Source of the DNA: Roseivirga thermotolerans
GTDB lineage: Bacteria > Bacteroidota > Bacteroidia > Cytophagales > Cyclobacteriaceae
Reading direction: 5' to 3'
Assembly: GCF_014653175.1 (NCBI RefSeq)
Contig: NZ_BNAG01000002.1
Location: 124,001 to 188,000 of the forward strand
DNA length: 64,000 nt
Below the pieces are notes generated by a model. It saw only the letters and a list, made by a program, of their open reading frames with translations. It was not told the origin of the DNA and searched no databases. Of the stretch, positions 5,479 to 54,426 are shown in pieces (the stretch's first letter is position 1; the number at the start of each line of letters is the position of its first letter). The position numbers and the translations under genes were made by a program.

Positions 5479-5931
5479 CTATTCTTGTTTAGGTAAAATG
5501 GCTACACTAGACCAGAAGTTGGTGATCCTATTCACCATAGAGGTTAGGTCGCTTAAGTTGTCTGGCTTATTAATAAAACAATTGGCGTATTTTGCATAGC
5601 TATCTCTGACAGCCGAATCGGCCTGCATAGAGGTTAGAACTATCACAGGAATGGTTCTAAAGCGGTCATCAGTTTTTACAAAATCTAAAAAACCAATACC
5701 ACTCTCTTTAGGAAGGGTCAAATCCAGCATTATTAGGTTAGGTTTGCTCACATGCTCATAGCCCCCTTCTTTCTCCAAGTAGTGCATGGCTTCCTGCACA
5801 CTGCCCACAACAGCAATGCTCGCCTTAGCGGAGTTATCTTCAATACTCCTTACAATTAATTCGGCATCTCGCGCGCTGTCTTCTAACAGAAGTATATCCA
5901 GTTCGCTATGTTTTGGTCTCAATAGGCTCAT
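5479..5931 (-). CDS. single-domain response regulator, Rcp1-like
   Basis: 150 residues, one receiver domain and no output domain. Acidic pocket in L-L-E-D-S, phosphoacceptor D70 in I-M-L-D-L-T-L-P, switch T in V-L-T-S, and K in I-N-K-P. The longer N-terminus and the insert before the phosphoacceptor resemble the Rcp1-like regulator at 3252. It is first in a minus-strand pair with the REC-kinase 9 bases downstream, and probably feeds or is fed by that kinase. It faces a gene-free region of about 470 bases that should hold its promoter. Confidence 0.92.
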   Translation of the reverse strand: MSLLRPKHSELDILLLEDSARDAELIVRSIEDNSAKASIAVVGSVQEAMHYLEKEGGYEHVSKPNLIMLDLTLPKESGIGFLDFVKTDDRFRTIPVIVLTSMQADSAVRDSYAKYANCFINKPDNLSDLTSMVNRITNFWSSVAILPKQE

Positions 5932-6401
5932 CGGTAAACTATTTTCCTGAATTAAGGCTCTTTTCCGTATCCAAGAGTGGTATTGAATGTGGGTAGTGAA
6001 GTATATTTTGGCGAAAAGCCGAAATTATTCTCTTAATCACTGAATATATAAATCTAAAATATGATTTTGATACACCCAAGTTGTATTAAAAATATTAATA
6101 AAGAAGAGTTGGTAGCAGGCACGGAAAAATAATCTTCTTATTCATGCGTGCCATCCTCAATTTGGTGAGTGTATATTGAGTTGAGACAGTAAATTAGTCA
6201 GCGAATTGGTAGAAAAGAAATGTTACTACATATAAATATATAACCTTGTAAATAATTCTATTTACAGGTAGGTGAAACCCTTAAAGTGTTATAAGCGAAT
6301 CGCGGAAATTCGATGTTTCTACCTCTAAAATCTAATCATTCCTAAAGAAATGCTCTCGCAAGTCAGTAGTTTCGAGTCTCTATTGGTAGAAGGTATTGAG
6401 G
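5932..6401. other. gene-free region of ~470 bases between divergent genes
   Basis: This AT-rich stretch separates the minus-strand regulator from the plus-strand unknown gene, so it must carry at least two promoters. I see no open reading frame of note and no RNA gene. The only strong structure is the palindrome at 6247-6266, listed separately. Confidence 0.6.
6247..6266. promoter_or_regulatory. perfect 8-bp inverted repeat, operator candidate
   Basis: TGTAAATA (6247-6254) and TATTTACA (6259-6266) are perfect reverse complements with a 4-base spacer. The 20-base palindrome lies ~135 bases before the start of the unknown gene at 6402 and is the size of a dimeric regulator's site. It has no G/C-rich stem and no T-run, so it is unlikely to be a terminator. 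The binding protein is unknown. Confidence 0.4.
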
Positions 6402-6875
6402 ATGAAAGGCAGTTATTTTACAGAAGGCAACGAGCAGCAGGCATATCATAAATCGGACAGCAAGCAGGCATTGGAGCGTCAAATTGCTAAAATGCATGAG
6501 CTGGGCGAAATTTTAAAACGATGGAACCCTGTATTGCTGACGGCTTCTGACCTACTGGAGGCTTTGAAAAGCAGGTTTTCTACCACTCTCGTGACAGCTC
6601 CTGCCAACGCCTATATAGTTACCGATGGCCTTAGACTGGGTATATGCCTCGAACAGATTTGCGAACTCATACAGCTTAGGGTGAGCCAACCATGCCAGCC
6701 CGTTATGTCTATGGACGATTATACGCTGCTAATGCGCTGGAAGACCCAGGAACCTAATGTGCTGGAAAACTCCATGACCGCCTCGTTCGTTTTCGATTTT
6801 CTTAAACAAAAAGGAGCTACAGTGTCTATAGCTCCCGAAGAAATCTCTGTGGCTTTTAAACTACAGCAAAAGTAG
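6402..6875 (+). CDS. unknown protein, possibly a degenerate HATPase-like or histidine-phosphotransfer fold
   Basis: 157 residues from the ATG at 6402; a TTG two codons upstream (6396) is also possible, but ATG is preferred. No signal peptide or membrane segment. The pattern is a helix-rich N-terminus, a D-L-L-E-A-L-K-S-R-F segment, a short strand pair (T-A-P-A-N-A-Y-I-V-T-D), a long hydrophobic helix (L-G-I-C-L-E-Q-I-C-E-L-I), and a C-terminal strand after F-L-K-Q-K-G-A-T-V. This order loosely recalls the end of a kinase dimerisation domain followed by the N-box helix of an ATPase domain, but no ATP-binding residues are visible. That reading is speculative. It lies near a two-component block. 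Confidence 0.6.
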   Translation: MKGSYFTEGNEQQAYHKSDSKQALERQIAKMHELGEILKRWNPVLLTASDLLEALKSRFSTTLVTAPANAYIVTDGLRLGICLEQICELIQLRVSQPCQPVMSMDDYTLLMRWKTQEPNVLENSMTASFVFDFLKQKGATVSIAPEEISVAFKLQQK

Positions 6876-6879
6876 TTTA

Positions 6880-7899
6880 CTATTGCAAAGAGCAGCTTCC
6901 ATTAAAATCAGAAGCATCGAAGAAAGTGCTGGCACGTCCTTTCAAGGCACCTCTTTTGGCCTCAATGGTTAGTTGATTGCTGCCGCTGCGTTTGGGAGAG
7001 CAATATTCCAATAAGTAATAACTGTTGGCTCTACCGTTTATCAGGTCTCCAATTTCCTTGAACTTATCGAGCAACTCTCCAATGTTTACGGCAGAAACAA
7101 AGCTGGTTTTTCCAATGGCTCTTAGCACGCTTTCGTCTATCTCTTGTCCTAGTCCTATGGTGTAAATGGCCATGTCCGCATCGGCCTTCTTAACTGCTTC
7201 CAGAGCCTGGCCTTTGGTAGCCCGATTGGCCTGGTCGGTTCCATCGGTAAAGATGACCACCGCGCTTGAGGCTATCTGATCCTGATTACGGGTTTGAGAG
7301 AGTTTTTGCGCGGCTACTTGAATGCCCTGAATCACCGCTCCGTATAAGTTGGTGGAGTTATCAGAACTCATTTGTGCATTTATTCTATCTATGGCAGCTT
7401 TAAGCGTGGCGCTATTATTAGAAGAAGCCTGCAGTTGCTTAATATTGGCGGCTCCATCGAACCACCAAATTTCCATTTTAATGGCCTGAGCAGATGGCGA
7501 TCCTTCAGCAGGAACCACTTCATCGATAAAGCTCTTAGCTGCCGACTTCAGGCCGCTTAAATTCTCTCCACCCAGCACACTACCACTAAGGTCTAGCAGC
7601 AGAGTAATATGGTAATCGAACACCTGTTCGTTGGGCTGAATTTTGCGCGTAGCTTCGAACTCAGAAATCTGCGCCCCATTTTCAAAAATGGTAAAGTCAC
7701 TCTCTTTTAAGCCCGCCACGCCATTACCGGCATTGTCTTGTACCCTAAAGAACACCGATACGTTGGAGGGGAGGTTGACAAACTGATCTTCAATAGTTAC
7801 CATCAGGCCCGTGTCAGTGTCGTCTTTGTTGCCACAGCCGAGCAATATCATGAACATACCAAGGGCTAGGATAGATATTTTAAGGATTGAGTTTTTCAT
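6880..7899 (-). CDS. von Willebrand factor A (VWA) domain lipoprotein
   Basis: 339 residues. The N-terminus is a lipoprotein signal with a hydrophobic core and an L-L-G-C box (C22), followed by an acidic linker. Residues ~40-95 form an Ig-like/CARDB-like segment that carries E-S-D-F-T-I-F-E-N-G. A VWA domain runs from ~95 to ~290 with an intact metal (MIDAS) motif D-L-S-G-S at 103-107, a T in the middle (S-T-N-L-Y-G-A) and F-T-D-G-T-D. The family binds protein partners or matrix through a metal ion at the cell surface. It ends 4 bases from the convergent unknown gene at 6402. The partner is not visible. Confidence 0.88.
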   Translation of the reverse strand: MKNSILKISILALGMFMILLGCGNKDDTDTGLMVTIEDQFVNLPSNVSVFFRVQDNAGNGVAGLKESDFTIFENGAQISEFEATRKIQPNEQVFDYHITLLLDLSGSVLGGENLSGLKSAAKSFIDEVVPAEGSPSAQAIKMEIWWFDGAANIKQLQASSNNSATLKAAIDRINAQMSSDNSTNLYGAVIQGIQVAAQKLSQTRNQDQIASSAVVIFTDGTDQANRATKGQALEAVKKADADMAIYTIGLGQEIDESVLRAIGKTSFVSAVNIGELLDKFKEIGDLINGRANSYYLLEYCSPKRSGSNQLTIEAKRGALKGRASTFFDASDFNGSCSLQ

Positions 7900-7948
7900 C
7901 TTCTTAGGTTAGTGGTTTATCGCAAGAACTGAGAAACTAATAGCCGTA

Positions 7949-7982
7949 TTGTGTCGTTGACGGCATAAATCATTTATTTTTG
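7949..7982 (+). promoter_or_regulatory. candidate Bacteroidota promoter for osmC
   Basis: A TTG at 7949-7951 and a TATTTTTG at 7975-7982 match the Bacteroidota TTG / TAnnTTTG elements with a 23-base spacer, the upper end of the reported range. Transcription would begin near 7988, leaving a leader of under 20 bases before the osmC ATG at 8005. Confidence 0.4.
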
Positions 7983-8004
7983 CGGGCAGATTAAAATCAG
8001 CAAT

Positions 8005-8409
8005 ATGAAGACAACTACCACGTTACTAGGAGATTATGAGTTTGAGTCGGTAAACCCCAACGGAAATAAAGTGCTGTTGGACATGCGACCTGCCGAAAAA
8101 AAGCAGGGACAATCACCCACCGAACTGTTATTATCGGCTCTATCGGGTTGTGCTTCAGTAGATTTGGTTCAGATGCTTAAGAAACGCAAACGGACTGTAA
8201 ATGGCCTTAAAGTAGAGGCGGAGGGAACCCGAAGAGAAGAGCATCCCAGAGCGTTTACTCATATTAAGCTTACCTTTATTCTCCAGTCGCCCGATGCTAC
8301 CCAGGAGGAATTTGAAAAACTGGGTCATATGGCAGCTACAAAGTACTGCTCCGTAGCAGGCACACTCAACTGTCAGGTAGACCACTTCTTTGAAATCGTA
8401 AGGGATTAA
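8005..8409 (+). CDS. OsmC-family peroxide-resistance protein
   Basis: 134 residues, the usual length for the OsmC/YhfA group. Both family cysteines are present: C49 in S-G-C-A-S-V-D and C115 in K-Y-C-S-V-A. The first lies in the S-A-L-S-G-C helix after the Q-S-P-T-E motif that leads into the long central helix. OsmC proteins reduce organic hydroperoxides through these two thiols as dimers in the cytoplasm; the short YhfA-like branch is less well characterised. It is a single gene, divergent from the VWA lipoprotein and convergent with DUF5916. The product should be a general thiol-peroxidase-like protective enzyme. Confidence 0.9.
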   Translation: MKTTTTLLGDYEFESVNPNGNKVLLDMRPAEKKQGQSPTELLLSALSGCASVDLVQMLKKRKRTVNGLKVEAEGTRREEHPRAFTHIKLTFILQSPDATQEEFEKLGHMAATKYCSVAGTLNCQVDHFFEIVRD

Positions 8410-8449
8410 GCCTTGGCTTTTTCTAAGCCGGGCTTTACCAAGCCGTACT

Positions 8450-10669
8450 CTATAAGTTGAGCCAATAGGTGACCTTAATAACCAATGCCCGGTTTTTATT
8501 TCTGAAATCGTCAGGGAAGTAATTATCGGTATAGGCTATAAACACGTCAGAAACCGGCTTAAAGCGCCATTGAATTCTGGAGTTTATGTTCAGGTTATCG
8601 ATCTGATTGTTGTATTGAATAAAGGTTGTCCAAAAAAGCTTTTTGGTAAAAGTAATATCGAACCTTGGGCCTATCAGAAACAGATCTGCACTACCGTAGG
8701 GTTCGGGTAGTCTAATACGGTTGTAGTTAAAATTCATGGTTACAAGCCCGTAAGGTAAAACCCGGTAATTAAGGTTTCCACCAAGCCCTAGCCTGTTTCC
8801 ATTATAGTAGCCTCCGGCATTGGCAAATACTGTCAGGTAAAATGGCTTTCGGGTATCTCCAGAAAAGAAGGCCTCCACATTGGTATACTCGTAGTCAGTA
8901 TCGGCCGGTAACCTTTCATTATTATTTCGGGTGGGGTCAAAAGCTCTAAAAAGATAAATGTAGCTTCGATTTACAGAAAGCCTGATGTTGCTGGTGTTCA
9001 ACATGGCCAGTTCCAGTCCTAATGAAACTTGCGAGTCTGTGGTGCCATTGGTGTCGTTGGTATAAACCTCCGTTTCAATACCGGGACTAATGCGTTGAAT
9101 AGCTCCTGAGTTGGGATAGAAATTCTTTCGGAGACTCAGAGCGCCACGCTCATAGTTGTTTCGTCTGGCAAAGCCGACTTCCGGATTGTATCCGTTGCCT
9201 ACCTTTTGAGCCAAACCTTCAATTTGCCAGTTAATGGTAGAATAGAGCAGGTTGGCCGAAGCTGCAAACGAGTTTTGTGAATCATCTTTTTCGAAAGTTC
9301 TGTGATAGAAGAATTTTCCGTTCAGTGAATTATCGGCCGATGCCAGATTGTAATCCAGGCCAACCACGCGATTGAACTGATTGAAGCTTGTGTTACTCTT
9401 ATTGGCAAGGTCTTGTTTGTTCACAAAAATGAGCCCTACGTTAGAGCGATTAAAAACCTTGCGCTGAAGGGCCGTAACCGTATAATTAATCTGAGGAAGG
9501 TCAATGTCGTTGATAGCAGCAGCTTGCATATTGAGCACCCCCAGCCTCCAGTTATTGTTGAGCTTGCCACTTAGACGCGCACCAAAGTTTATCTTGTTTT
9601 GCACATTTACCCCAGTATTTTCATCGCGGCTTACACCTATTCTTCTGGAGAAAAAAGGCCTGAGTCCATCGGCACCAAACTCTGAAAATAAGTCAGCGTT
9701 TTCCAGAAAAAACTGTCTTCGCTCCGGAAAAAATATTTCGAACCTGTCCAGGTTGGTCACTTGCCGATCTACCTCTACCTGAGAAAAATCGGGGTTTACC
9801 GTTATATCCAGATTAAGCGCAGGGCCCAGAGCCACTTTTGCGTCAAATCCGGCATCAAAACTCGATTCAGTACTTCGCGGTATTTGTTGCTGATCATCGC
9901 GGTTTAAATACCCTCCTTCCTTGATGGTGTTGCCCGATACATAAGGGATAACCGAAACATTGGCTCCCGGTTTTTTGGGGGCTTTATCCCAAACGAGTTT
10001 GCCTGTGTGAGCCAATGAATACAGGGCAAAATTACGCGGTACAGGGTTCCATATACTCCGCTCACCAGTGTGCGAGTCTATTCTGTATGAGTTGATGTTC
10101 CAAACCAGATTTCCTTCTTTGTACCGTATGCTTTTAAAGGGAATGGCCATCTCTACCATCCAATACCCCTCGTGTTGAGTAGCTTCACCATACCATTTGT
10201 TTTCCCAATCGAGCGAGAGGTTGCCCCGCTGGGCTCCACCATTCGAAACCAACCCTTCACGTCTAACTCCAAAGGGGTTAATGCCAAACTGAAAGGCATT
10301 GGTCAAATCATCGAACGTATCGAAAGCAATGGTGAACATATCATTGCCTGCTCCGCGAAAATCTCTTCTAAGCGAAGGGGTTACATAAGTGGCATCATCC
10401 GGAGCATACAGCTTGGCTCCTACATAAATAAAGCGGTCGTCATAGGTAAACATTAGCTCGGTTTGCGAAGAGGCCCGACTGGTATCGGTAGGGAAATTCA
10501 GCCAATAGTCACTACCTTTTTCGGCCTGAGTCCAGCTGTCTTCATTGAGCAAACCATCTATTTTTATGGGGTCTATAGCCTCTTTTATGTGAATGGTTTT
10601 AGGTTCCTGCCCCAAGAGTATTTTTGAGAAAATGAGCAGTATAAATGTGGTAATTGCTAGTTTAGACAT
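8450..10669 (-). CDS. DUF5916 outer-membrane protein with CBM9-like N-terminal domain
   Basis: 739 residues from the ATG at 10669. An upstream in-frame ATG at 10726 would put 19 extra residues before the signal peptide, so the internal start, which gives M-S-K-L-A-I-T-T-F-I and a cleavage near G-Q-E, is preferred. After the signal a CBM9-like domain (I-K-I-D-G-L-L-N-E-D-S-W start, Y-D-D-R-F-I-Y-V-G) occupies ~residues 25-210. The rest is DUF5916, a predicted outer-membrane beta-barrel with alternating strands and aromatic girdles, beginning at the D-I-T-V-N-P-D-F-S-Q-V-E segment. The family is widespread in Bacteroidota and often sits by TonB or permease genes; its substrate is unknown. Confidence 0.88.
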   Translation of the reverse strand: MSKLAITTFILLIFSKILLGQEPKTIHIKEAIDPIKIDGLLNEDSWTQAEKGSDYWLNFPTDTSRASSQTELMFTYDDRFIYVGAKLYAPDDATYVTPSLRRDFRGAGNDMFTIAFDTFDDLTNAFQFGINPFGVRREGLVSNGGAQRGNLSLDWENKWYGEATQHEGYWMVEMAIPFKSIRYKEGNLVWNINSYRIDSHTGERSIWNPVPRNFALYSLAHTGKLVWDKAPKKPGANVSVIPYVSGNTIKEGGYLNRDDQQQIPRSTESSFDAGFDAKVALGPALNLDITVNPDFSQVEVDRQVTNLDRFEIFFPERRQFFLENADLFSEFGADGLRPFFSRRIGVSRDENTGVNVQNKINFGARLSGKLNNNWRLGVLNMQAAAINDIDLPQINYTVTALQRKVFNRSNVGLIFVNKQDLANKSNTSFNQFNRVVGLDYNLASADNSLNGKFFYHRTFEKDDSQNSFAASANLLYSTINWQIEGLAQKVGNGYNPEVGFARRNNYERGALSLRKNFYPNSGAIQRISPGIETEVYTNDTNGTTDSQVSLGLELAMLNTSNIRLSVNRSYIYLFRAFDPTRNNNERLPADTDYEYTNVEAFFSGDTRKPFYLTVFANAGGYYNGNRLGLGGNLNYRVLPYGLVTMNFNYNRIRLPEPYGSADLFLIGPRFDITFTKKLFWTTFIQYNNQIDNLNINSRIQWRFKPVSDVFIAYTDNYFPDDFRNKNRALVIKVTYWLNL

Positions 10670-25333: not shown

Positions 25334-26719
25334 TTAGTATCCCAAGGTTTTAAGCATCGACTCCTCTTTTTGCTCTTCAGCAAACACACGAGTAACAATA
25401 TTGCCGTTTTCATCATGGTCTACCAACACGTGCTTGGGCGCAGGAATGAGGCAATGCTGAATGCCTCCATAGCCGCCCAGCGACTCTTGATACGCTCCCG
25501 TGTGGAAAAAGCCAACGTATAGGTTTTCATCTTCTTCAATAAGAGGCATAAATACCTCAGAGGTATGGGCTTCTGAATTGTAGTAGTCCATACTGTCGCA
25601 GGTCAGGCCGCCCATATTCACTTTGTGGAAGGGGTGATCCCATTTGTTGATCGCCAGTAAAATATACTTTTGATTGAGGCCCCAGGCATCGGGCAAATGA
25701 GTGATAAATGAGCCGTCAATCATGTACCAAAGCTCCTTATCGTTTTGTAGTTTTTGATCGAGTACGGAATAGATATGAGCACCACTTTCGCCCACCGTAA
25801 AGCTTCCGAATTCAGTGACTATATTTGGTACCGGCACATTGCTTTTGTTGCAGATCCACTGAATATTCTCTACAATCTGCTCGACCATATATTCGTAGTC
25901 ATACTCAAAGGCCAGAGAGGTTTTTATGGGGAATCCGCCACCAATATCTACCGTATCCAGCGTAGGGCAAATCTTCTTTAATTCGCAGTATTTGTACATA
26001 AACCGGCTTAGCTCACTCCAGTAGTAGGCCGTATCTTTAATGCCCGTATTAATAAAGAAATGGAGCATTTTTAGCGTGGCCTGCGAGCCTTCTATTTGTT
26101 CTCTGTACAAGTCTTTAATATCGCTGTACCGAATTCCCAAACGGGAGGTGTAAAACTCAAAGTTAGGTTCCTCATCGGCTGCCACCCGAATCCCCACTTT
26201 AAAGTCGCCCTTAATGTTCTCCTTGTAAAAATCTAGTTCATTGAGGTTGTCCAGAATAGGTACACAGTTTTTAAAGCCATCGTTAATGAGTTCGCTAATA
26301 TATTGGGTGTACAACGGACGCTTGAAACCATTGCAAATCACCAATATATCCTTATCGATTTTTCCCTTCTTGTGAAGGCTCCTGACAATGGGAATATCAA
26401 AGGCTGAGGAAGTTTCAATTTGGCAACCATTCTTAATGGTTTCGTCCAACACAAAGCTAAAGTGCGAAGATTTGGTACAGTAGCAGTACGTATAGGTACC
26501 TTGGTACTTATTTTTCTTTATAGCTTTTTCGAACCACTTTTTGGCCAGTTGAATGTTCTGAGAAATTTTAGGCAGATAGGTAATTCTCAGAGGAGTGCCA
26601 TGTTCTCTAATAATCTCTTTGAGAGGTATGTCATGAAACTCCAGATACTTGCCGTTTACTTTAAATTCTTTGGTAGGAAAATCAAAGGTCTGGTCAATTA
26701 GATCGTAGTAACTCTTCAT
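25334..26719 (-). CDS. speA: arginine decarboxylase (PLP, fold type III, biosynthetic-like)
   Basis: 461 residues from ATG 26719; an earlier in-frame start at 26776 adds Cys-rich residues and is rejected. It decarboxylates arginine to agmatine. PLP lysine is in Y-T-Y-C-Y-C-T-K-S-S-H-F near residue ~85, D-I-G-G-G-F-P binds the phosphate, and the D-A-W-G-L-N and C-D-S-M-D-Y motifs close the active site at the dimer interface. It is shorter than E. coli SpeA, without the inserted domain, as in other Bacteroidota. It diverges from a deoxyhypusine-synthase-like gene and an arginase-family gene, consistent with polyamine synthesis. Final tail is acidic (E-E-Q-K-E-E-S). Confidence 0.88.
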   Translation of the reverse strand: MKSYYDLIDQTFDFPTKEFKVNGKYLEFHDIPLKEIIREHGTPLRITYLPKISQNIQLAKKWFEKAIKKNKYQGTYTYCYCTKSSHFSFVLDETIKNGCQIETSSAFDIPIVRSLHKKGKIDKDILVICNGFKRPLYTQYISELINDGFKNCVPILDNLNELDFYKENIKGDFKVGIRVAADEEPNFEFYTSRLGIRYSDIKDLYREQIEGSQATLKMLHFFINTGIKDTAYYWSELSRFMYKYCELKKICPTLDTVDIGGGFPIKTSLAFEYDYEYMVEQIVENIQWICNKSNVPVPNIVTEFGSFTVGESGAHIYSVLDQKLQNDKELWYMIDGSFITHLPDAWGLNQKYILLAINKWDHPFHKVNMGGLTCDSMDYYNSEAHTSEVFMPLIEEDENLYVGFFHTGAYQESLGGYGGIQHCLIPAPKHVLVDHDENGNIVTRVFAEEQKEESMLKTLGY

Positions 26720-26892
26720 TGATAAAACTCTGTGTAAAGACGAAGCACAAATATTGCAACAAATTACGAGATGCAAAGATGTGCGAAATTAAAAAAGCAC
26801 TAAGATTTTCTCAGGCGTTAAAATACAAGGTCAAAGTTAACCGAAATGCACAGAAATTAGCATTTTTGCATAAAACTGAATACTATAGCATT
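26720..26892. promoter_or_regulatory. divergent promoter region, speA / DHS-like operon
   Basis: The 173 bases between the two ATGs must carry promoters in both directions. I see no clear TTG/TAnnTTTG pair and no strong palindrome. Confidence 0.4.
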
Positions 26893-27867
26893 ATGTCCAA
26901 TTCACCCATTTCAGCATTTATAGAAAAACACTACCGCCACTTCAATGCCGCAGCTCTGGTAGATGCCGCCAAAGGCTATCAACTGCACTTGGCCGAAGGA
27001 GGTAAAATGATGGTTACACTGGCAGGAGCCATGAGTACCGCTGAACTAGGGCTAAGTCTGGCTGAAATGATCAGGCAAGACAAAATAGATATTATATCCT
27101 GCACAGGGGCCAACCTGGAAGAAGATATTATGAACCTGGTGGCTCACTCGCACTACAAAAGAGTGCCCAATTACAGAGACTTGACCCCTCAGGAAGAATG
27201 GGATCTTTTAGAACAAGGTCTGAACCGGGTAACCGATACCTGCATACCGGAAGAAGAGGCCTTCAGAAGGCTTCAGAAGCATATTCACTACCAGTGGAAG
27301 AAAGCTGAAGATGCCGGAGAGCGCTACTTCCCACATGAATACATGTATAAAATGTTGTTGTCGGGCGATTTGGAGCAATACTATGAGATAGACCCAAAAA
27401 ACAGTTGGATGCTAGCCGCAGCCGAAAAAAACCTACCCATTGTTGTGCCCGGTTGGGAAGACTCTACAATGGGGAACATCTTTGCTTCTTACTGTATAAA
27501 AGGAGAACTAAAGGCTTCTACCATGAAATCAGGTATCGAATATATGGTGTGGTTGGCCGACTGGTATAAAAACAACTCAGAAGGTAAAGGAGTAGGCTTT
27601 TTCCAGATTGGTGGAGGAATTGCCGGTGACTTCCCCATATGTGTTGTGCCAATGATGTATCAAGATTTAGAGATGCACGATATACCTTTCTGGAGCTATT
27701 TCTGCCAAATTTCAGATTCAACCACCAGTTATGGTTCTTACTCCGGTGCCGTGCCTAACGAAAAAATCACCTGGGGTAAGCTCGATATCGATACCCCCAA
27801 GTTTGTGGTAGAGTCAGATGCCACCATTGTGGCTCCACTTATGTTTGCCTACATATTGGGTTGGTAA
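26893..27867 (+). CDS. speY: deoxyhypusine-synthase-family protein, probable homospermidine synthase
   Basis: 324 residues from ATG 26893. NAD-dependent deoxyhypusine synthase fold: the G-A-M-S-T-A-E-L-G motif near 42-50, S-C-T-G-A-N-L-E-E-D-I, and G-G-G-I-A-G-D-F-P for NAD. The catalytic lysine is conserved in I-T-W-G-K-L, matching S-W-G-K-I of human DHS (K329). Bacteria lack eIF5A, so hypusine formation is not expected. Such bacterial proteins transfer an aminobutyl group to putrescine, giving homospermidine. The locus (arginine decarboxylase, this gene, ureohydrolase) fits polyamine synthesis. The arginase-family gene follows after 13 bases. Confidence 0.85.
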   Translation: MSNSPISAFIEKHYRHFNAAALVDAAKGYQLHLAEGGKMMVTLAGAMSTAELGLSLAEMIRQDKIDIISCTGANLEEDIMNLVAHSHYKRVPNYRDLTPQEEWDLLEQGLNRVTDTCIPEEEAFRRLQKHIHYQWKKAEDAGERYFPHEYMYKMLLSGDLEQYYEIDPKNSWMLAAAEKNLPIVVPGWEDSTMGNIFASYCIKGELKASTMKSGIEYMVWLADWYKNNSEGKGVGFFQIGGGIAGDFPICVVPMMYQDLEMHDIPFWSYFCQISDSTTSYGSYSGAVPNEKITWGKLDIDTPKFVVESDATIVAPLMFAYILGW

Positions 27868-27880
27868 CTTTCATAAAACC

Positions 27881-28831
27881 ATGAGAAAGATAAGGCTAGT
27901 CGAAGTTCGTTCCGAAATTGCCGCAGGCACTCGCGGAGCGAGCATGGGCATTGATGCCATGAAAATCGCGAGTATCAAGCGGCACTCCGATTTTTTTATG
28001 CGCTTTGAACCGGTGAGCATACAAGATGAAAACCGTTTGCTTTTTCGCGAACCACAGTATGCTTTTGCCAAGTATGCCGAAGGAGTATATACCATGGTAA
28101 ACCGGGTATGCCAGAACATTGCCGACCTAAGAACAGAGGGGCTATTTCCTATTGTGTTGGCCGGAGACCACTCTACGGCAGCAGGCACTATTTGTGGCAT
28201 TAAAAAAGCACACCCCGAAAAGAGACTTGGAGTTATTTGGATAGACGCCCATGCCGATTTTCATTCGCCATATACCACACCATCGGGCAATATGCATGGC
28301 ATGCCCCTGGCAATGGTTACTGCTACCGACAATGAGGAGTGCGAGAGCAATGATGTGGAAGAAGAGACTGAAGCCATTTGGGAGCGGATAAAGCAAATAG
28401 GAGCCAACGGGCCCAAAATAAGCCCTTCTGATATTGTATATATAGGCGTACGAGATACGGAAAAAGCCGAAGACCACCTGATTGAAAAATTTGGCATAAA
28501 GAACTTTACGACCGAAGAGCTAAACGACAAAGGAGTGGTTACCGTGGCCAAAGAGGCTCTTCAACTCCTCAAAGATTGTGATCAAATCTACATTTCTTTC
28601 GATGTAGACAGTCTGGATACATCCGTTTCTACCGGCACAGGAACCCCCGTGCCCAATGGGCTCACCAAAGAGCAGGCTTTTGAGCTAAATCAGGAGTTGA
28701 TTAAAGATAAAAGGGTTTGTTGTTGGGAAATTGTAGAGGTGAACCCAACTTTGGACACTGAAAACAAAATGGCCGAAATAGCATTCGAGATTTTAGAGGC
28801 CACAACCGATTCGCTGATAGAGAATTTCTAA
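27881..28831 (+). CDS. arginase/agmatinase-family ureohydrolase
   Basis: 316 residues from ATG 27881. Binuclear manganese motifs are intact: A-G-D-H-S, D-A-H-A-D-F-H-S and S-F-D-V-D-S-L-D, followed by G-T-G-T-P-V-P-N-G-L-T. The enzyme hydrolyses a guanidino group to urea. With arginine decarboxylase encoded next door, agmatine to putrescine is the expected reaction, although the sequence resembles arginases, and arginine to ornithine cannot be excluded. argS follows after 3 bases, so it is in an operon with the DHS-like gene and argS. Confidence 0.88.
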   Translation: MRKIRLVEVRSEIAAGTRGASMGIDAMKIASIKRHSDFFMRFEPVSIQDENRLLFREPQYAFAKYAEGVYTMVNRVCQNIADLRTEGLFPIVLAGDHSTAAGTICGIKKAHPEKRLGVIWIDAHADFHSPYTTPSGNMHGMPLAMVTATDNEECESNDVEEETEAIWERIKQIGANGPKISPSDIVYIGVRDTEKAEDHLIEKFGIKNFTTEELNDKGVVTVAKEALQLLKDCDQIYISFDVDSLDTSVSTGTGTPVPNGLTKEQAFELNQELIKDKRVCCWEIVEVNPTLDTENKMAEIAFEILEATTDSLIENF

Positions 28832-49208: not shown

Positions 49209-50129
49209 ATGGGAAAAATGGACCCGACAGTACTCGGAGCGAGGTTGCTGTCCGCAAAAGAATCACAGGAAATCGATCTAGGTATTTTACAAGGCTTTCT
49301 GGGCACTTGGGAAAGCAAACCCGGATCGGGCACAGGTTGGAATGTTATTGCCGTACCAGGTAACTCACCCTTTACTCCTCCGGCCGATGGTTTTGTTCTG
49401 GAGGTAATTCCATATTATGAAACATGGTCGTTTTCTCCGGCTGTTATTGCCGGTAATCGTGGTATGGAAGATGACCAGACCATTGTGGGATTAATCTATG
49501 AACAGAAGGTCTTTAGCGATTGCGATACTGAATTTTGTAATGCCCGAGGCTTTAGTAAGGGCACCGAAATTCATGCCGAAACAGGAATGTTGCTGAACAT
49601 TACCAATTTCGATAGCGGCTTTAATGTGGCCAGACTCGGTAATATTCCGCATGGTAATTCAATCTTGTTAATGGGTAACTCCAGCGAATCTAACGGAAAG
49701 TTTGATTTTCCTGAGGCTAAAACAAGCCCAACTTTGGTTGATGGAGGAGGCGTGTTTGGTTATGGAGAAGAACAATATACCATGCATCCACGGTTTCCAG
49801 ATTTCCCTCAGGCCAATCCTAACCAGCAGCTGGCCAATGATGTAAAGGATCAGAAGTTTGGTCAGGTTATTACGCTCAATCTGTCTTCTGAGAACGCCAC
49901 AGGAGGTATCCTCAATACCCCATTCATAACCAAGAATACCGATGCTACAAAAATGAGCTGTATTTTTTGGCTAGAAGAGGTGTTGAACGCTAATGGTAGC
50001 AGTTCATGGCAGCTTCAATATTCACAGACGATCAACCTGGTGTTTCCTCCTTCTACAGCCCCTAACGGAAGGAAGTTTAATTGGCCTCATGTGGATATCA
50101 ATACCCTGCAGAAGGTGGCCGATGTATAA
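49209..50129 (+). CDS. heme-binding / nitrobindin-like beta-barrel protein (uncertain)
   Basis: 306 residues, no signal peptide, no membrane segment. L-Q-G-F-L-G-T-W-E-S-K-P-G near residue 25-37 resembles the first strand of nitrobindin and related fatty-acid-binding-like barrels, with G-W-N-V-I-A-V-P-G and E-V-I-P-Y-Y-E-T-W-S-F following. The rest is a long beta-rich protein with H-P-R-F-P-D-F and Q-L-Q-Y-S-Q-T-I-N. In other Bacteroidota such proteins are annotated as heme-binding, but I see no decisive heme ligand, so call is tentative. Convergent with the MNIO operon across a hairpin. Confidence 0.5.
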   Translation: MGKMDPTVLGARLLSAKESQEIDLGILQGFLGTWESKPGSGTGWNVIAVPGNSPFTPPADGFVLEVIPYYETWSFSPAVIAGNRGMEDDQTIVGLIYEQKVFSDCDTEFCNARGFSKGTEIHAETGMLLNITNFDSGFNVARLGNIPHGNSILLMGNSSESNGKFDFPEAKTSPTLVDGGGVFGYGEEQYTMHPRFPDFPQANPNQQLANDVKDQKFGQVITLNLSSENATGGILNTPFITKNTDATKMSCIFWLEEVLNANGSSSWQLQYSQTINLVFPPSTAPNGRKFNWPHVDINTLQKVADV

Positions 50130-50148: not shown

Positions 50149-50183
50149 CACCCGTCCGACCGATCCAAGCGGTCGGACGGGTG
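50149..50183. terminator. bidirectional hairpin between convergent genes
   Basis: CACCCGTCCGACC (50149-50161) and GGTCGGACGGGTG (50171-50183) are perfect 13-base inverted arms around a 9-base loop. It lies between a plus-strand stop (50129) and a minus-strand stop (50196), so it probably ends both transcripts, though T-runs are weak on both sides. Confidence 0.7.
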
Positions 50184-50195
50184 AATCGTATACAT

Positions 50196-51029
50196 TTAAG
50201 TGCTCAGGAGCAGGCTTTCAGTAAAATATTCTTTCCATTTTGGCCAGACTTCCTGAAATGCTTTTTGGTCTATTCCTGTCTGCTCAATAAATGCCTTTAA
50301 GGTTGGAGCAAATTGTCCATGCATTTTCCAAAGGTTGAGGAAGATGTATTGACCGCGATTCAGTTCGAACAGACCAATTCTAAAGTCTTTTGTCCTTGCC
50401 AGAGCCACGTAGGTTGGCAAAGGGGTTGGTATTGCAGGAGACTTGCCTTTAATAGCCTGCTGATAATATTGGCTAATTGGAAACTTAAAAGCGAACAACT
50501 CCAGGGCCTCCACCAAACGAAGTTGCTCACTTGGAGTTTTCAGTAAGGCATATTCAAAGGTAGTGGAGAAGTCGGCATCGAAAATGCGGGTGATTTTATA
50601 CTCAAACCTTACCAGCTCAATCATAAAATCGGGCCAGGTTTCGCGCTCTTCTGGAGCCAGCTCTTTGTCTGGTCTTGTTTCTTCAAGGTATTGAGCAAAC
50701 CGGTGACCCAGCTCGCTGAGTGTATAGCTTTGCGAAGGATACTTCTGCAGGTAGTCATCGACAAACGCCTGAAATAGCTCTTTTCCGAGAGCCATCTGAA
50801 GTACCGAAAATTGCTTTTCCATGCAGTCGCGTAATCTGGCCAGGTAGCCTGTTTGGTAAATTTGCAATCGCTCATTCGCAGAGAGTCTGCTGTTGGGTTT
50901 AATGAGCTTCTCTACATCGTTCTTAAATGAGTCCGGCAAATAACTGTTGGGGTCGGTTTCGAAAGCGAGTGGAGACACCAGTATTTGTTGCATCCATTTT
51001 TGAGTGGCTGAAAGGCTTGGCTTTGTCAT
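50196..51029 (-). CDS. DUF2063 family partner protein of the MNIO enzyme
   Basis: 277 residues. The DUF2063 (HvfC/BufC, also MbnC/TglI-like) fold: N-terminal helical half with E-R-L-Q-I-Y-Q-T-G-Y-L-A-R-L-R-D and F-V-D-D-Y-L-Q-K-Y-P-S, then a beta-rich half with L-P-T-Y-V-A-L-A-R-T-K-D-F-R-I-G-L-F. In known systems such proteins bind the substrate peptide and present it to the iron enzyme. It overlaps the MNIO gene by 4 bases (ATGA) and is the last gene of the operon. No signal or membrane segment: it acts in the cytoplasm. Confidence 0.9.
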   Translation of the reverse strand: MTKPSLSATQKWMQQILVSPLAFETDPNSYLPDSFKNDVEKLIKPNSRLSANERLQIYQTGYLARLRDCMEKQFSVLQMALGKELFQAFVDDYLQKYPSQSYTLSELGHRFAQYLEETRPDKELAPEERETWPDFMIELVRFEYKITRIFDADFSTTFEYALLKTPSEQLRLVEALELFAFKFPISQYYQQAIKGKSPAIPTPLPTYVALARTKDFRIGLFELNRGQYIFLNLWKMHGQFAPTLKAFIEQTGIDQKAFQEVWPKWKEYFTESLLLST

Positions 51030-51976
51030 TGTAGTTCCTGGCTAACTTCCGGTACTAAAAAACTCACCGGGTTAGAAACTTTAAGGTCTGTGGTTGATGG
51101 TGGGTTCATTTGAATGGGCCCCGGTTCACCCTCCATGTATTCCCTGGCTTTCAAAACTTCGGCATGGTACTCTTCAAAAGAGGGAATATGGTTATCCCAC
51201 TCCAGAAGCACTGAACAACCTCCGATTTTTTGCCAGGCAATTCTAAACAGCTCCCAGACGGAATCTATTACCGGGCTATCATGTGTGTCTATTATGTGTG
51301 TGCCGCAATGCATGTGGCCAGCCAGGTGCATTTGCACAATTCGTTCGTGTGGGAGTTCTTCAATGTATTTTATAGGATCCCACTCATTGTTAAAACAGGT
51401 CACGTATACGTTGTTAACATCGAGAAGCAGACCGCAGCCACTCTGCTCGGCCATTTCCTTCAAAAACAAAGGTTCATGAATATCGGAATGCTGAAAGCTC
51501 AGGTAAGTGCTTGGGTTTTCGAGAATAAGTGGGCGTTCCAGAAAATCTTGCACCTGTTTAATACGCTGTACTATATGATTCAGAGTTTCTTCATTGAGTG
51601 GCACAGGAAGAAGGTCGTGTGTATTTAAGCCCAATACGCCCGTCCAGCAAAGGTGGTCACTAATCCATTTGGGTTGAATTTCGGAAGCTAGTTTTTTGAG
51701 CCGCTTTAAGTAGTCCATGTTCAGCGGGTCGGTGCTTCCTATGGAAAGAGAGACCCCATGCATAACCAAAGGATATTCTTCGGCAATTTGCCTTAGAAAG
51801 TTCATGGGCCTTCCACCGGAGTCCATGAAGTTTTCGGAGATAACCTCAAACCAGTCTACTGGCGGATGATTTTCAGTAATGTATTTAAAGTGTTGGCTTC
51901 GGAGCCCCAGTCCTAAGCCTAATTGCGGCAGGTTTTGCAATTGGCGTTCAAAATGGTCTGTATTATGGGCATGCAT
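51026..51976 (-). CDS. DUF692 multinuclear non-heme iron oxidase (MNIO)
   Basis: 316 residues from ATG 51976; a GTG at 52027 would add 17 residues and is less likely. TIM-barrel enzyme of the MbnB/TglH/BufB family, which oxidises cysteine or other residues of a peptide using two or three irons and O2. Candidate metal residues: E48, H73, D107-H108, E153-N154, D186/N188, H217 and H221, D230-H232, E259-D261, each in a family motif (M-H-G-V-S-L-S, I-S-D-H-L-C, L-E-N-P-S, L-L-D-V-N-N, H-L-A-G-H, D-T-H-D). Downstream DUF2063 is its partner, and upstream is a Cys-rich candidate substrate. The actual product is unknown. Confidence 0.93.
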   Translation of the reverse strand: MHAHNTDHFERQLQNLPQLGLGLGLRSQHFKYITENHPPVDWFEVISENFMDSGGRPMNFLRQIAEEYPLVMHGVSLSIGSTDPLNMDYLKRLKKLASEIQPKWISDHLCWTGVLGLNTHDLLPVPLNEETLNHIVQRIKQVQDFLERPLILENPSTYLSFQHSDIHEPLFLKEMAEQSGCGLLLDVNNVYVTCFNNEWDPIKYIEELPHERIVQMHLAGHMHCGTHIIDTHDSPVIDSVWELFRIAWQKIGGCSVLLEWDNHIPSFEEYHAEVLKAREYMEGEPGPIQMNPPSTTDLKVSNPVSFLVPEVSQELQ

Positions 51977-52079
51977 ATTCAGTGGGGTTAAGCAGAAGCG
52001 GGAACTTAACAGCACTACATGCTTCACAGAATTCCCGCTCTGTCATTGATTGGTAATTTATACCGGAAGACCGTTTGCG

Positions 52080-52766
52080 CTACTGCTGAGCCTGGCTTTC
52101 CCTTTTTTCATCTTCTTCTACCTTTTTACATTCGGTACAAGTGTCTTTGAGGGCTTCTCTGCTGGCCTCAATCATTTCTTCAGCATTTTTTGCCGGGCTG
52201 TTGTAGCCGAAAGAGCAATATTTATCTCCGCTATTTCCGCAAGAGTCGTACTCACCGTTGGCGGCTACAGATTGCAACCATTTTTGCGGTGGTCCTGAAG
52301 GAAAAGGAGAGGGGCCAACTGTTCGGTTGGCTTTGGCCATTCTTTCTTCAAACAGCTTGCGGGCAAGTAGCCAGGTGCTTTTACCGGCATTTGGTCCCTG
52401 AGTGCTAAATCGTTCGGCTTGTATGGGGGTGGCGCAGCTGCCTTGCCAGGCGCAGTCGTTGGCTCCCGGTCGGCATTGTTCGGAGGCGTCACCATATAAA
52501 CCACAACCACCTTGTCCGCGGCAGTTGTTTAGTGTGTGACAAACGTGTGTTTGAGTGGCGCAAAAGCCTTGTCCAGCACAGGCGTTGGTTCCAAATCTAT
52601 CATGGCCTTTGCAGGCGTTCAGCCCCATGCAGGCGTGCAATTCAAGGGGAGTAGTAATGTCTTTTTCTCCCTTGCTGCTGGAGCCGCAACCGTTGGAGCT
52701 TCCACAGCTGCTTCCTCTGCCGCCACAGCTATCGTACAAAAAATGAGTGTTGTTAAAAATATACAT
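52080..52766 (-). CDS. Cys-rich repeat protein, candidate MNIO substrate
   Basis: 228 residues with 17 cysteines and no signal peptide. Residues 14-27 hold a G/S/C-rich start (C14, C21, C27). Residues 46-111 hold ten cysteines in a tandem pattern: N-x-C-x-x-Q-G-x-C appears three times (C63/C69, C82/C88, C105/C111), with linking units such as H-V-C-H and E-Q-C-R-P-G. A helical region (~120-165) and a second Cys pair region (C176, C184, C210, C213) end in an acidic tail. This resembles the cysteine-glycine-asparagine-rich proteins modified by MNIO enzymes (bufferin-like), but is longer and lacks a signal peptide. It starts 21 bases after the ferritin-like gene. Confidence 0.75.
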   Translation of the reverse strand: MYIFNNTHFLYDSCGGRGSSCGSSNGCGSSSKGEKDITTPLELHACMGLNACKGHDRFGTNACAGQGFCATQTHVCHTLNNCRGQGGCGLYGDASEQCRPGANDCAWQGSCATPIQAERFSTQGPNAGKSTWLLARKLFEERMAKANRTVGPSPFPSGPPQKWLQSVAANGEYDSCGNSGDKYCSFGYNSPAKNAEEMIEASREALKDTCTECKKVEEDEKRESQAQQ

Positions 52767-52787
52767 ACGTGTGAGTTTTATAAGTGA

Positions 52788-54320
52788 TTAACCTGCAAAT
52801 GAGAGCTTTCCTTTTTCTTTATCCAGATAAGGCTCCAATGGCACATCGGGTAAGTCATGAATTCTTTGTCCGAGATAGGCAATACCATCATAGGCACCTA
52901 CAGCGCTGTTGAATAGTTCTATTAACTGCGATTTAGGGCTGGAAGAGGTTGCAAAGTGGTAGTCTTCAAAGGTAGGGGCAGCATTATATGTTTTGCCATC
53001 TTTGGCCACATAGCTCATTCCTGTTAGTTCACCACAAAGTGAGTTAAGAATGAATATCATAGACTTATGAATGCCAAACATAAAGAGTTCATATTGGGTG
53101 TGTCCCTTTCTGCGATAGCAATCTTCGCTCATTAAAAAGATGTAGGTGTAAATGGCATTGGTAAGAGTGGCCACCTTTTGAACAGCAGGGCTGGTGTAAT
53201 CGGCTACGCTTGGGTTTTCCGGAACATTGAGCACGAAGTATTTGGTAAAGAACTCGTCATTTATCTCGTCTAGTTTGGCGGGATCAAAGTAGGTTTTTGC
53301 ACTGGCGTCCTGGTCGCCTACATCGCATACCTCTTTGCCCATAGCATGAGCAAACTTATGCAGGTATTTATGCAAGTCACAATACACCTGATTGAACTTA
53401 AAAAAGTGTGATTCTTCGTCTCCGCTAGGGTCGTCTGTGTCATCTATATTGCCCGGAGCACAATTCACCGTTCCGTTGGCATTAAGCCCCGTGGTTAAAC
53501 CACTTCCCGGCTCGGGGGTGTGTCCTTCCCCTTGTTCAACAATTTCCTGCATAGCCGCAATGGCACTTTCTGCATCGGTTACGTATATCAGGTCGCCACT
53601 ATCTTCTGCATTGGTAAATACCGGTTTGTGTTCGCGGTTATAATATATGGTATCAATGGTGTTGTTTGTGTAGTAGCCTTTGCCGGGAATGAGTTGGGGT
53701 CTTTCCGGATGGTACTCCACATCGGCACTACCCAGATACTTTTCAATTTGAGAGTAGAATTCGCCAATGGTGGTATATTCAATAGGTTTGGCAGCAAGCA
53801 ACATCTCGGTGCCGGGTTCTTTCAGTTTGTCCGGAGACTCAATTTGAAGAAAGGTATAAAGCGACCTGAAAGAAAGTTTCGATCGATTGATCGGAAACTC
53901 CGGTATGTGTCCGGGTAAATAGGCCGGCCAGCTGGTCGGGGTTTTGTAAAGTAACTCCGGCTGTCCAACGGTGGCTTGTTTAATGTTGGAAGAAAGGGCC
54001 ATGTGTAGCATTTCTTCTATTACCACGCTCATTATTAAGGCTCCTGCCCGGTTGGCATAAACCATAATATCAGCCGAAAGTTCCTGAGCCAGAGTGGAGG
54101 CTTCTTCTTTTGTTTTACCGGCAGCCAGGAGGTCAGCGGTTAGTTGCTCGATTAATTCATCCTGGTTGGGATTTCTGTTAATAGAGTAATATGTGTACAA
54201 ATAGACCGGTATAGTGGCTATTTCAATCTCTATGGCTTGTTGAATGGCCTGGGGAAAATTTTCCTTATTGACCACGGAGTCATTGCCCAGCAAGAGTGGG
54301 GCTTTAGATGGTGCGTTCAT
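52788..54320 (-). CDS. ferritin-like protein of the iminophenyl-pyruvate dimer synthase (VioB/RebD) type
   Basis: 510 residues from ATG 54320; an earlier in-frame start at 54383 is rejected. Residues ~18-110 form the PF12902-type ferritin-like domain: A-I-E-I-E-I-A-T-I-P-V-Y-L-Y-T-Y-Y-S, then V-I-E-E-M-L-H-M-A (E103, H106 as iron ligands). Later, E-E-S-H-F-F-K-F near ~320 and the Y-Q-K-type helices belong to the C-terminal helical half. In VioB and RebD the domain dimerises oxidised indolepyruvate imines, but many homologues have unknown roles. It is first in the operon with the Cys-rich and MNIO genes, so it may be a second oxidising enzyme or an iron-handling protein. Assignment of domain confident, role not. 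Confidence 0.8.
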   Translation of the reverse strand: MNAPSKAPLLLGNDSVVNKENFPQAIQQAIEIEIATIPVYLYTYYSINRNPNQDELIEQLTADLLAAGKTKEEASTLAQELSADIMVYANRAGALIMSVVIEEMLHMALSSNIKQATVGQPELLYKTPTSWPAYLPGHIPEFPINRSKLSFRSLYTFLQIESPDKLKEPGTEMLLAAKPIEYTTIGEFYSQIEKYLGSADVEYHPERPQLIPGKGYYTNNTIDTIYYNREHKPVFTNAEDSGDLIYVTDAESAIAAMQEIVEQGEGHTPEPGSGLTTGLNANGTVNCAPGNIDDTDDPSGDEESHFFKFNQVYCDLHKYLHKFAHAMGKEVCDVGDQDASAKTYFDPAKLDEINDEFFTKYFVLNVPENPSVADYTSPAVQKVATLTNAIYTYIFLMSEDCYRRKGHTQYELFMFGIHKSMIFILNSLCGELTGMSYVAKDGKTYNAAPTFEDYHFATSSSPKSQLIELFNSAVGAYDGIAYLGQRIHDLPDVPLEPYLDKEKGKLSFAG

Positions 54321-54426
54321 TGAAAAAATAGTTTGGTGTGAAATTACATGTCCCAATTTAAGGAATCTGCAATTAAAAGTCACCCCGGATTATTACCTGT
54401 TTTTTTTAAAAAGCCCATCTCGCACG

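Follow-up and report, generated by a model that had tools for sequence, protein, structure and literature searches.

The stretch of DNA analysed here (64,000 nucleotides of Roseivirga thermotolerans contig NZ_BNAG01000002.1, referred to below as the window) contains at 50196-54320 a cassette of four minus-strand genes, in which a BufB-type MNIO is accompanied by a ferritin-like protein. The first gene (52788-54320) encodes this ferritin-like protein, FER, of 510 aa (PF12902, 127.5 bits, cut-off 22.3); its ATG start is at 54320, and an alternative upstream GTG would begin at 54383. It is followed after 21 bases by the gene for PRE (52080-52766), a protein of 228 aa with 17 Cys residues and without a Pfam match, which is the presumed MNIO substrate. 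The MNIO gene itself (51026-51976; PF05114/DUF692, 359.5 bits) has its ATG start at 51976 and its stop at 51026; the distance to PRE is 103 bases, or 52 bases if an alternative GTG start at 52027 is used. The last gene (50196-51029; PF09836, 68.4 bits, cut-off 27.2) encodes a DUF2063 partner of PME-type 1, presumed to bind the precursor, and overlaps the MNIO gene by 4 bases (ATGA, 51026-51029). A sequence-only reading of the window had described the same four minus-strand genes in this order, with gaps of 21 and ~100 bases, a 4-base overlap and 17 Cys residues, all of which proved correct.

A scan of genome contigs with PRE yielded 56 loci, divided over the Bacteroidota (37), Pseudomonadota (9), Actinomycetota (8) and Acidobacteriota (2). 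Genomes of the same genus or family added five and the window one, giving a total of 62. PRE, MNIO, DUF2063 and FER were all recognisable on one strand in 62/62 loci, across the four phyla. The order was FER-PRE-MNIO-DUF2063 in 54 of the 62; the 8 actinobacterial loci showed the order PRE-MNIO-DUF2063-FER, two of them (L064 and L067) having been called MNIO-first by the open reading frame (ORF) caller from over-extended or fused ORFs. The Kitasatospora copy, L064, has decayed: deletions have joined PRE with the MNIO, and DUF2063 with pieces of FER. The MNIO and DUF2063 genes of a metagenome-assembled genome of the Saprospirales (L066) are split by frameshifts, and one further cassette (L015) is cut by a contig end. 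The neighbourhood of the same order that the sequence-only reading had suggested looking for in related genomes is, with these 62 loci, clearly conserved.

Because this set had been found through PRE, a second sample of 297 Bacteroidota genomes was drawn regardless of gene context. It held 5 PRE genes, 10 PF12902 genes above the cut-off and 22 MNIO matches (21 above the cut-off). PRE was located inside the full four-gene cassette in 5/5 PRE-bearing genomes. Five PF12902 genes and most MNIOs were located away from a cassette, so the linkage is specific; random placement would give ~0.01 FER/MNIO pairs within 3 kb. A local accident or an annotation artefact is ruled out by the 62 loci and the five context-blind genomes. 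Distances measured inside each of the four families were correlated from family to family (Mantel rho 0.59-0.88, against permuted maxima of 0.20-0.27). Beyond the four core genes no family was common to most loci. Other conserved small ORFs were considered as the true precursor, but none emerged: the next largest clusters (4-9) turned out to be antisense shadows of the core genes. The cassette occurs in ~2% of the Bacteroidota with a patchy distribution, and a Marinomonas protein is among the closest to that of the window (73% identity over the matched segment), which suggests spread by horizontal transfer. Carriage as phage or plasmid cargo was rejected, as no relatives were found in IMG/VR or PLSDB.

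The core of PRE (residues 44-115) is Buf2-like and built on Cx5C spacing, with the consensus ELHxCMGLNACKG...CAGxGxCAT..HxCHTxNxCRGQGGCG...CxxxGSCATPI. Eight core Cys residues, mostly Cx5C-spaced, are invariant in 62/62 sequences; the Cx5C pairs are kept, with 8-9 Cys in the core (the BufA2 criterion being six or twelve) and insertions between the units. The BufA2 model NF050166 was matched at E <= 0.01 by 26/34 PRE members (best 2.4e-7), and the window PRE (P0002) scored 19.7 bits, not reaching the curated cut-off of 60 bits. The 297 genomes also contained one true BufA2 (G247), whose N-terminus is hydrophobic and which displays the same HACKGMNECKGKGGC logic as the PRE core. Judged by these sequence features, the core is related to bufferin-2 (BufA2), though divergent. 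Members of the PRE family measure 155-277 aa and contain 8-22 Cys. Besides the core, the C-terminal region (119-160) is conserved (R119, W132, A135-R136, F139, M143, P154, P159). AlphaFold2 modelled this region with moderate to good confidence and predicted the core poorly, and no solved structural relative of PRE was found.

The sequence-only reading had seen no signal on the Cys-rich protein, and a crude hydropathy test, the only one applied, likewise detected no strongly hydrophobic N-terminal segment in PRE. The N-terminal value of the window PRE was -0.01, that of the BufA2 control 2.2; the highest PRE values, 1.95 and 1.67, came from two Chitinimonas ORFs whose called starts are apparently over-extended. 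Since the N-terminal extension of PRE varies from ~10 to 90 residues, a classical conserved leader is unlikely, and PRE would be recognised through its core or its C-terminal region. With its Buf2-like core and invariant Cys residues, and as the only conserved Cys-rich gene of the cassette, PRE is the likely MNIO substrate, in agreement with the role first proposed for the 228-residue protein.

The window MNIO scored 362 bits on NF050167 (MNIO_BufB, cut-off 310), a model matched by 29/29 MNIO homologues, and in the MNIO tree the cassette enzymes nest with BufA2-type MNIOs; by these matches the enzyme is classed in the bufferin-maturase family. It keeps the metal-site His/Asp/Glu residues. With the residue register set by alignment to 3bww and PMC12668002, D261 corresponds to Asp249 of FonB, which has been proposed as catalytic base (PMC12668002), and is invariant in 62/62. 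The adjoining specificity position is Phe in Lys-Cys enzymes and Asp in Cys-Lys enzymes (PMC12668002); in the cassette MNIOs it is G, S, D or N. The Cys-Lys signature (Asp at the FonB-250 site) was dropped as a diagnostic, the position being variable. The DUF2063 signature PF09836 was found in 31/31 partner homologues, which places them in PME-type 1. In the MNIO survey (PMC12452194), DUF2063 partners are reported with signal-peptide precursors, and the cassette shows the opposite correlation. The general statement that DUF692/DUF2063 pairs modify Cys-containing peptides holds for bufferin-type, and also oxazolin-type, precursors; the methanobactin and 3-thiaglutamate pathways named with it use other partner types. 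At another locus (L108, genome G339, 6071-8582) a BufB-like MNIO and DUF2063 occur with no recognisable Cys-rich precursor upstream; an ORF of ~200 aa precedes them.

FER carries the putative diiron ligands E33, E103xxH106, E265 and E302xxH305, a set of four Glu and two His of which all six are kept in 59-60 of 60 homologues. Its AlphaFold2 model is ferritin-like and confident (predicted local distance difference test score, pLDDT, 84; predicted template modelling score, pTM, 0.88), and FER is regarded as a putative diiron enzyme. Cassette FERs (~420-530 aa) form one clade apart from other PF12902 proteins (support 93/83). The only solved relative is 3hl1 (CC_0557), an uncharacterised Caulobacter protein. 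VioB, an enzyme that contains heme b and shows catalase activity, is reported to have this structure as its best template too (PMC9705886). Non-cassette PF12902 genes adjoin GMC flavin oxidoreductases and FMP heme proteins (L107, L116), and fungal ones are found near lodA/lodB quinoprotein genes (PMC4417212). In the L107 genome (G000:C4:3000-16000, 5564-9151) a second PF12902 protein (404 aa, 206 bits) is encoded there, next to genes for a GMC oxidoreductase and a small FAD-SLDH-like subunit; a comparable set in L116 includes an FMP peroxidase as well. The suggestion that the ferritin-like gene supplies a second iron enzyme or iron handling is in its first half supported by the full ligand set. 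Iron handling is one of several possible roles, and the VioB-type PF12902 relatives speak rather for an oxidoreductase.

In Pleionea sediminis (L058), FER and PRE form a single ORF of 675 aa. The frame runs through the junction, ...RLNELPDIATIRQFDGKLEPVEVKHACMGLNACKG..., without a stop, and ahead of the core Cys residues the PRE frame offers neither ATG nor GTG nor TTG as a start; a single misread base is for that reason an unlikely cause of the fusion. No second fusion was found among 40 genomes drawn around Pleionea. As the two proteins are naturally fused in this species, FER and PRE would act at one place.

The cassette of the window faces a convergent plus-strand gene (49209-50129) for an FMP-type heme-binding protein of 306 aa (NF040572, 256 bits, cut-off 150); this gene, like the natural FER-PRE fusion, was missed in the sequence-only reading, which had listed the four genes correctly. 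Between the two lies a perfect 14-bp inverted repeat (50149-50183), presumably a terminator; the hairpin, 3' of the last gene, folds as RNA with -32.1 kcal/mol (z = -4.6), and 0/200 shuffles were as stable. FMP was above the cut-off in 7/297 Bacteroidota: the five cassette genomes, one genome with a PF12902 gene adjoining FMP and one other. Its occurrence in 5/5 cassette genomes versus 2/292 others is a strong enrichment (Fisher p = 1.1e-9). It was present in 18/50 cassette genomes reached through PRE, sometimes encoded far from the cassette, and is therefore a facultative associate; as an obligatory fifth gene it was rejected. Five cassettes also contain an indolepyruvate-decarboxylase-like thiamine pyrophosphate enzyme. 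It is accompanied in four of them by related flavin oxidases (that of L018 being VioA-like, 82 bits) and in the remaining one by an unrelated FAD-linked oxidase. Genes of these kinds precede some cassettes (L114, L115, L111, L018, L015) and recall the entry steps of violacein synthesis; occurring at only 4-5 loci, they were not counted as core.

Upstream on the same strand, an FtsX/MacB-like permease gene unrelated to the operon ends at 54427, so that the operon should start within the gap of ~107 bases; no match to a Bacteroidetes promoter consensus was present at the operon start. The segment 54427-60277 contains a tandem pair of FtsX/MacB-like permease genes together with a PadR-like regulator, which look unrelated. 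Elsewhere in the window (26719-28831), a deoxyhypusine-synthase-like gene, judged by eye, lies between arginine-decarboxylase-like and agmatinase-like genes.

Among described systems, the closest is bufferin 2 (BufA2-BufB2-BufC2, captophorin class; PMC12452194 and PMC12668002), which shares the order precursor-MNIO-DUF2063, Cx5C pairs in the Cys core, an MNIO above the BufB equivalog cut-off and a PME-type 1 partner. Unlike bufferin 2, PRE is without a visible Sec signal peptide, is longer, with 8-9 Cys in the core and a C-terminal region that is conserved too, and scores far below the BufA2 cut-off in the case of the window protein; the MNIO specificity position (Phe250/Asp251) is not conserved, and the cassette has an obligate ferritin-like partner and no DoxX among its conserved neighbours. 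The same survey lists, in its Table 2, an uncharacterised family named adjamnio-I (100 sequences of 122-293 aa with 8-21 Cys and without a signal peptide; PMC12452194) with the gene order adjamnio-I - MNIO - PME-type 2. PRE resembles it in lacking a signal peptide, in length and Cys number and in the order precursor-MNIO-partner, but differs in its partner, the DUF2063 signature being present in 31/31. By description, the PRE family may be adjamnio-I; the word 'ferritin' is absent from the main text of that paper. FER, in turn, shares with VioB/RebD-type enzymes and 3hl1 the PF12902 fold, the ligand motifs and a neighbourhood of heme proteins and flavin oxidases, and some cassettes contain VioA-like (~4/65 loci) and indolepyruvate-decarboxylase-like genes. 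The VioB/RebD imine-dimer synthases are large heme proteins that act with VioA/RebO on indolepyruvate imine, whereas FER has 510 aa and no heme-domain match, belongs to a separate clade whose members go together with an MNIO and a Cys-rich protein, and comes with no evidence of indole chemistry. According to the sequence-only reading, a ferritin-like gene is not known from a described MNIO pathway, and a full-text search of open-licence papers found none joining an MNIO or DUF692 with such a gene. The proposal of an undescribed system in that reading needs correcting: the cassette does not stand alone, being a BufA2/BufB relative whose precursor may already be listed as adjamnio-I (PMC12452194, Table 2). 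It is best filed as a bufferin relative with an unreported obligate ferritin-like partner.

Our preferred interpretation, to which we give a probability of roughly 40%, is that the cassette makes a cytosolic bufferin-2-like metalloprotein that is coupled to a diiron oxidoreductase as a redox unit. The DUF2063 protein would dock PRE, and the MNIO would oxidise several Cys of the Cx5C core, the likeliest products being 5-thiooxazoles like those of bufferins and captophorins; this is the strongest step. The modified core would then bind a soft metal, most likely copper, and mature PRE, lacking a signal peptide, would remain in the cytosol. In the last and weaker step, mature PRE would stay with FER as functional partner or subunit, the diiron and thiooxazole metal sites acting jointly in an O2- or peroxide-dependent redox reaction, assisted in some species by the FMP heme protein and rarely by the VioA-like flavin oxidase and indolepyruvate-decarboxylase-like genes. 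Oxidation of PRE Cys by the MNIO and DUF2063 has good support from sequence; the nature of the product as a 5-thiooxazole copper-binding protein that is cytosolic and forms a redox unit with FER has weaker support. The interpretation is favoured by the four-gene linkage in 62 loci and in the context-blind genomes with no other family common to most loci, by the Buf2-type core, the BufB-type MNIO with its invariant catalytic Asp and PRE as the sole conserved Cys-rich ORF, by the invariant FER ligand set on a confident model, the fusion, the correlated divergence and the single FER clade, and by the enrichment of FMP, the flavin oxidases and heme proteins beside PF12902 relatives and the heme b and catalase activity of VioB.

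Several points weigh against the redox unit. The chemistry, the metal binding and the FER-PRE complex are proposals from sequence, the PRE model is weak (pLDDT 65), the fusion is known in one species only, and no copper-resistance gene is found among the conserved neighbours. As the flavin/decarboxylase genes (~5 loci) and FMP (~1/3 of genomes) accompany only part of the cassettes, the reaction is not pinned down. Moreover, enzyme-substrate fusions occur in other pathways for ribosomally synthesised and post-translationally modified peptides (borosins), and the Pleionea fusion is thus equally compatible with tailoring. FER as a second tailoring enzyme, making an oxidative change on PRE after or before MNIO/DUF2063 and giving a doubly modified metallophore-like protein, is itself doubtful, yet nearly as likely as the redox unit. 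Its obligate linkage and fusion with the substrate and its intact diiron ligands suit such a role, and other MNIO clusters recruit P450s and HEXXH enzymes (PMC13192836 and PMC12636437). Tailoring would, however, leave the FMP enrichment unexplained; relatives in PF12902 are found next to flavin oxidases and heme proteins where no Cys-rich protein is encoded, and the known chemistry of this type (VioB) targets small molecules.

A bolder form of the redox unit, which we consider rather unlikely, is a hybrid metalloenzyme with PRE as the subunit that bears the cofactor; its thiooxazole metal site, made by the MNIO pair, would work with the diiron site, in cis in the Pleionea fusion and in trans in the other species. 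Cytosolic protection against metal and peroxide appears improbable: PRE would buffer copper, and FER, alone or along with FMP, would independently serve the same stress response as a ferroxidase, peroxidase or catalase-like protein, making no direct contact with PRE. Bufferins guard against copper (PMC12452194) and the neighbours are ferritin-like and heme peroxidase-like, but known bufferins act in the periplasm, the fusion and tight co-evolution suggest direct contact, and no DoxX, sigma factor or metal-resistance family is among the conserved neighbours. It is very unlikely that PRE stays unmodified, as a Cys-rich metal or iron-sulfur protein, and that the MNIO has a different substrate, for although its modification is deduced from sequence and the core can be read as a metal-binding protein, PRE has BufA2 homology, the MNIO is BufB-type and the gene set is invariant with PRE as sole candidate substrate.

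MNIO-modified proteins have so far been mainly exported copper buffers or small natural products. The cassette pairs a bufferin-like protein without a signal peptide permanently with a putative diiron enzyme, in four phyla and once as one polypeptide, and this fusion in Pleionea offers a simple one-gene handle for testing. If this is confirmed, the cassette would be an exception to the proposed rule that DUF2063 partners accompany signal-peptide precursors, and MNIO chemistry would reach the cytosol, perhaps for the building of cofactors.

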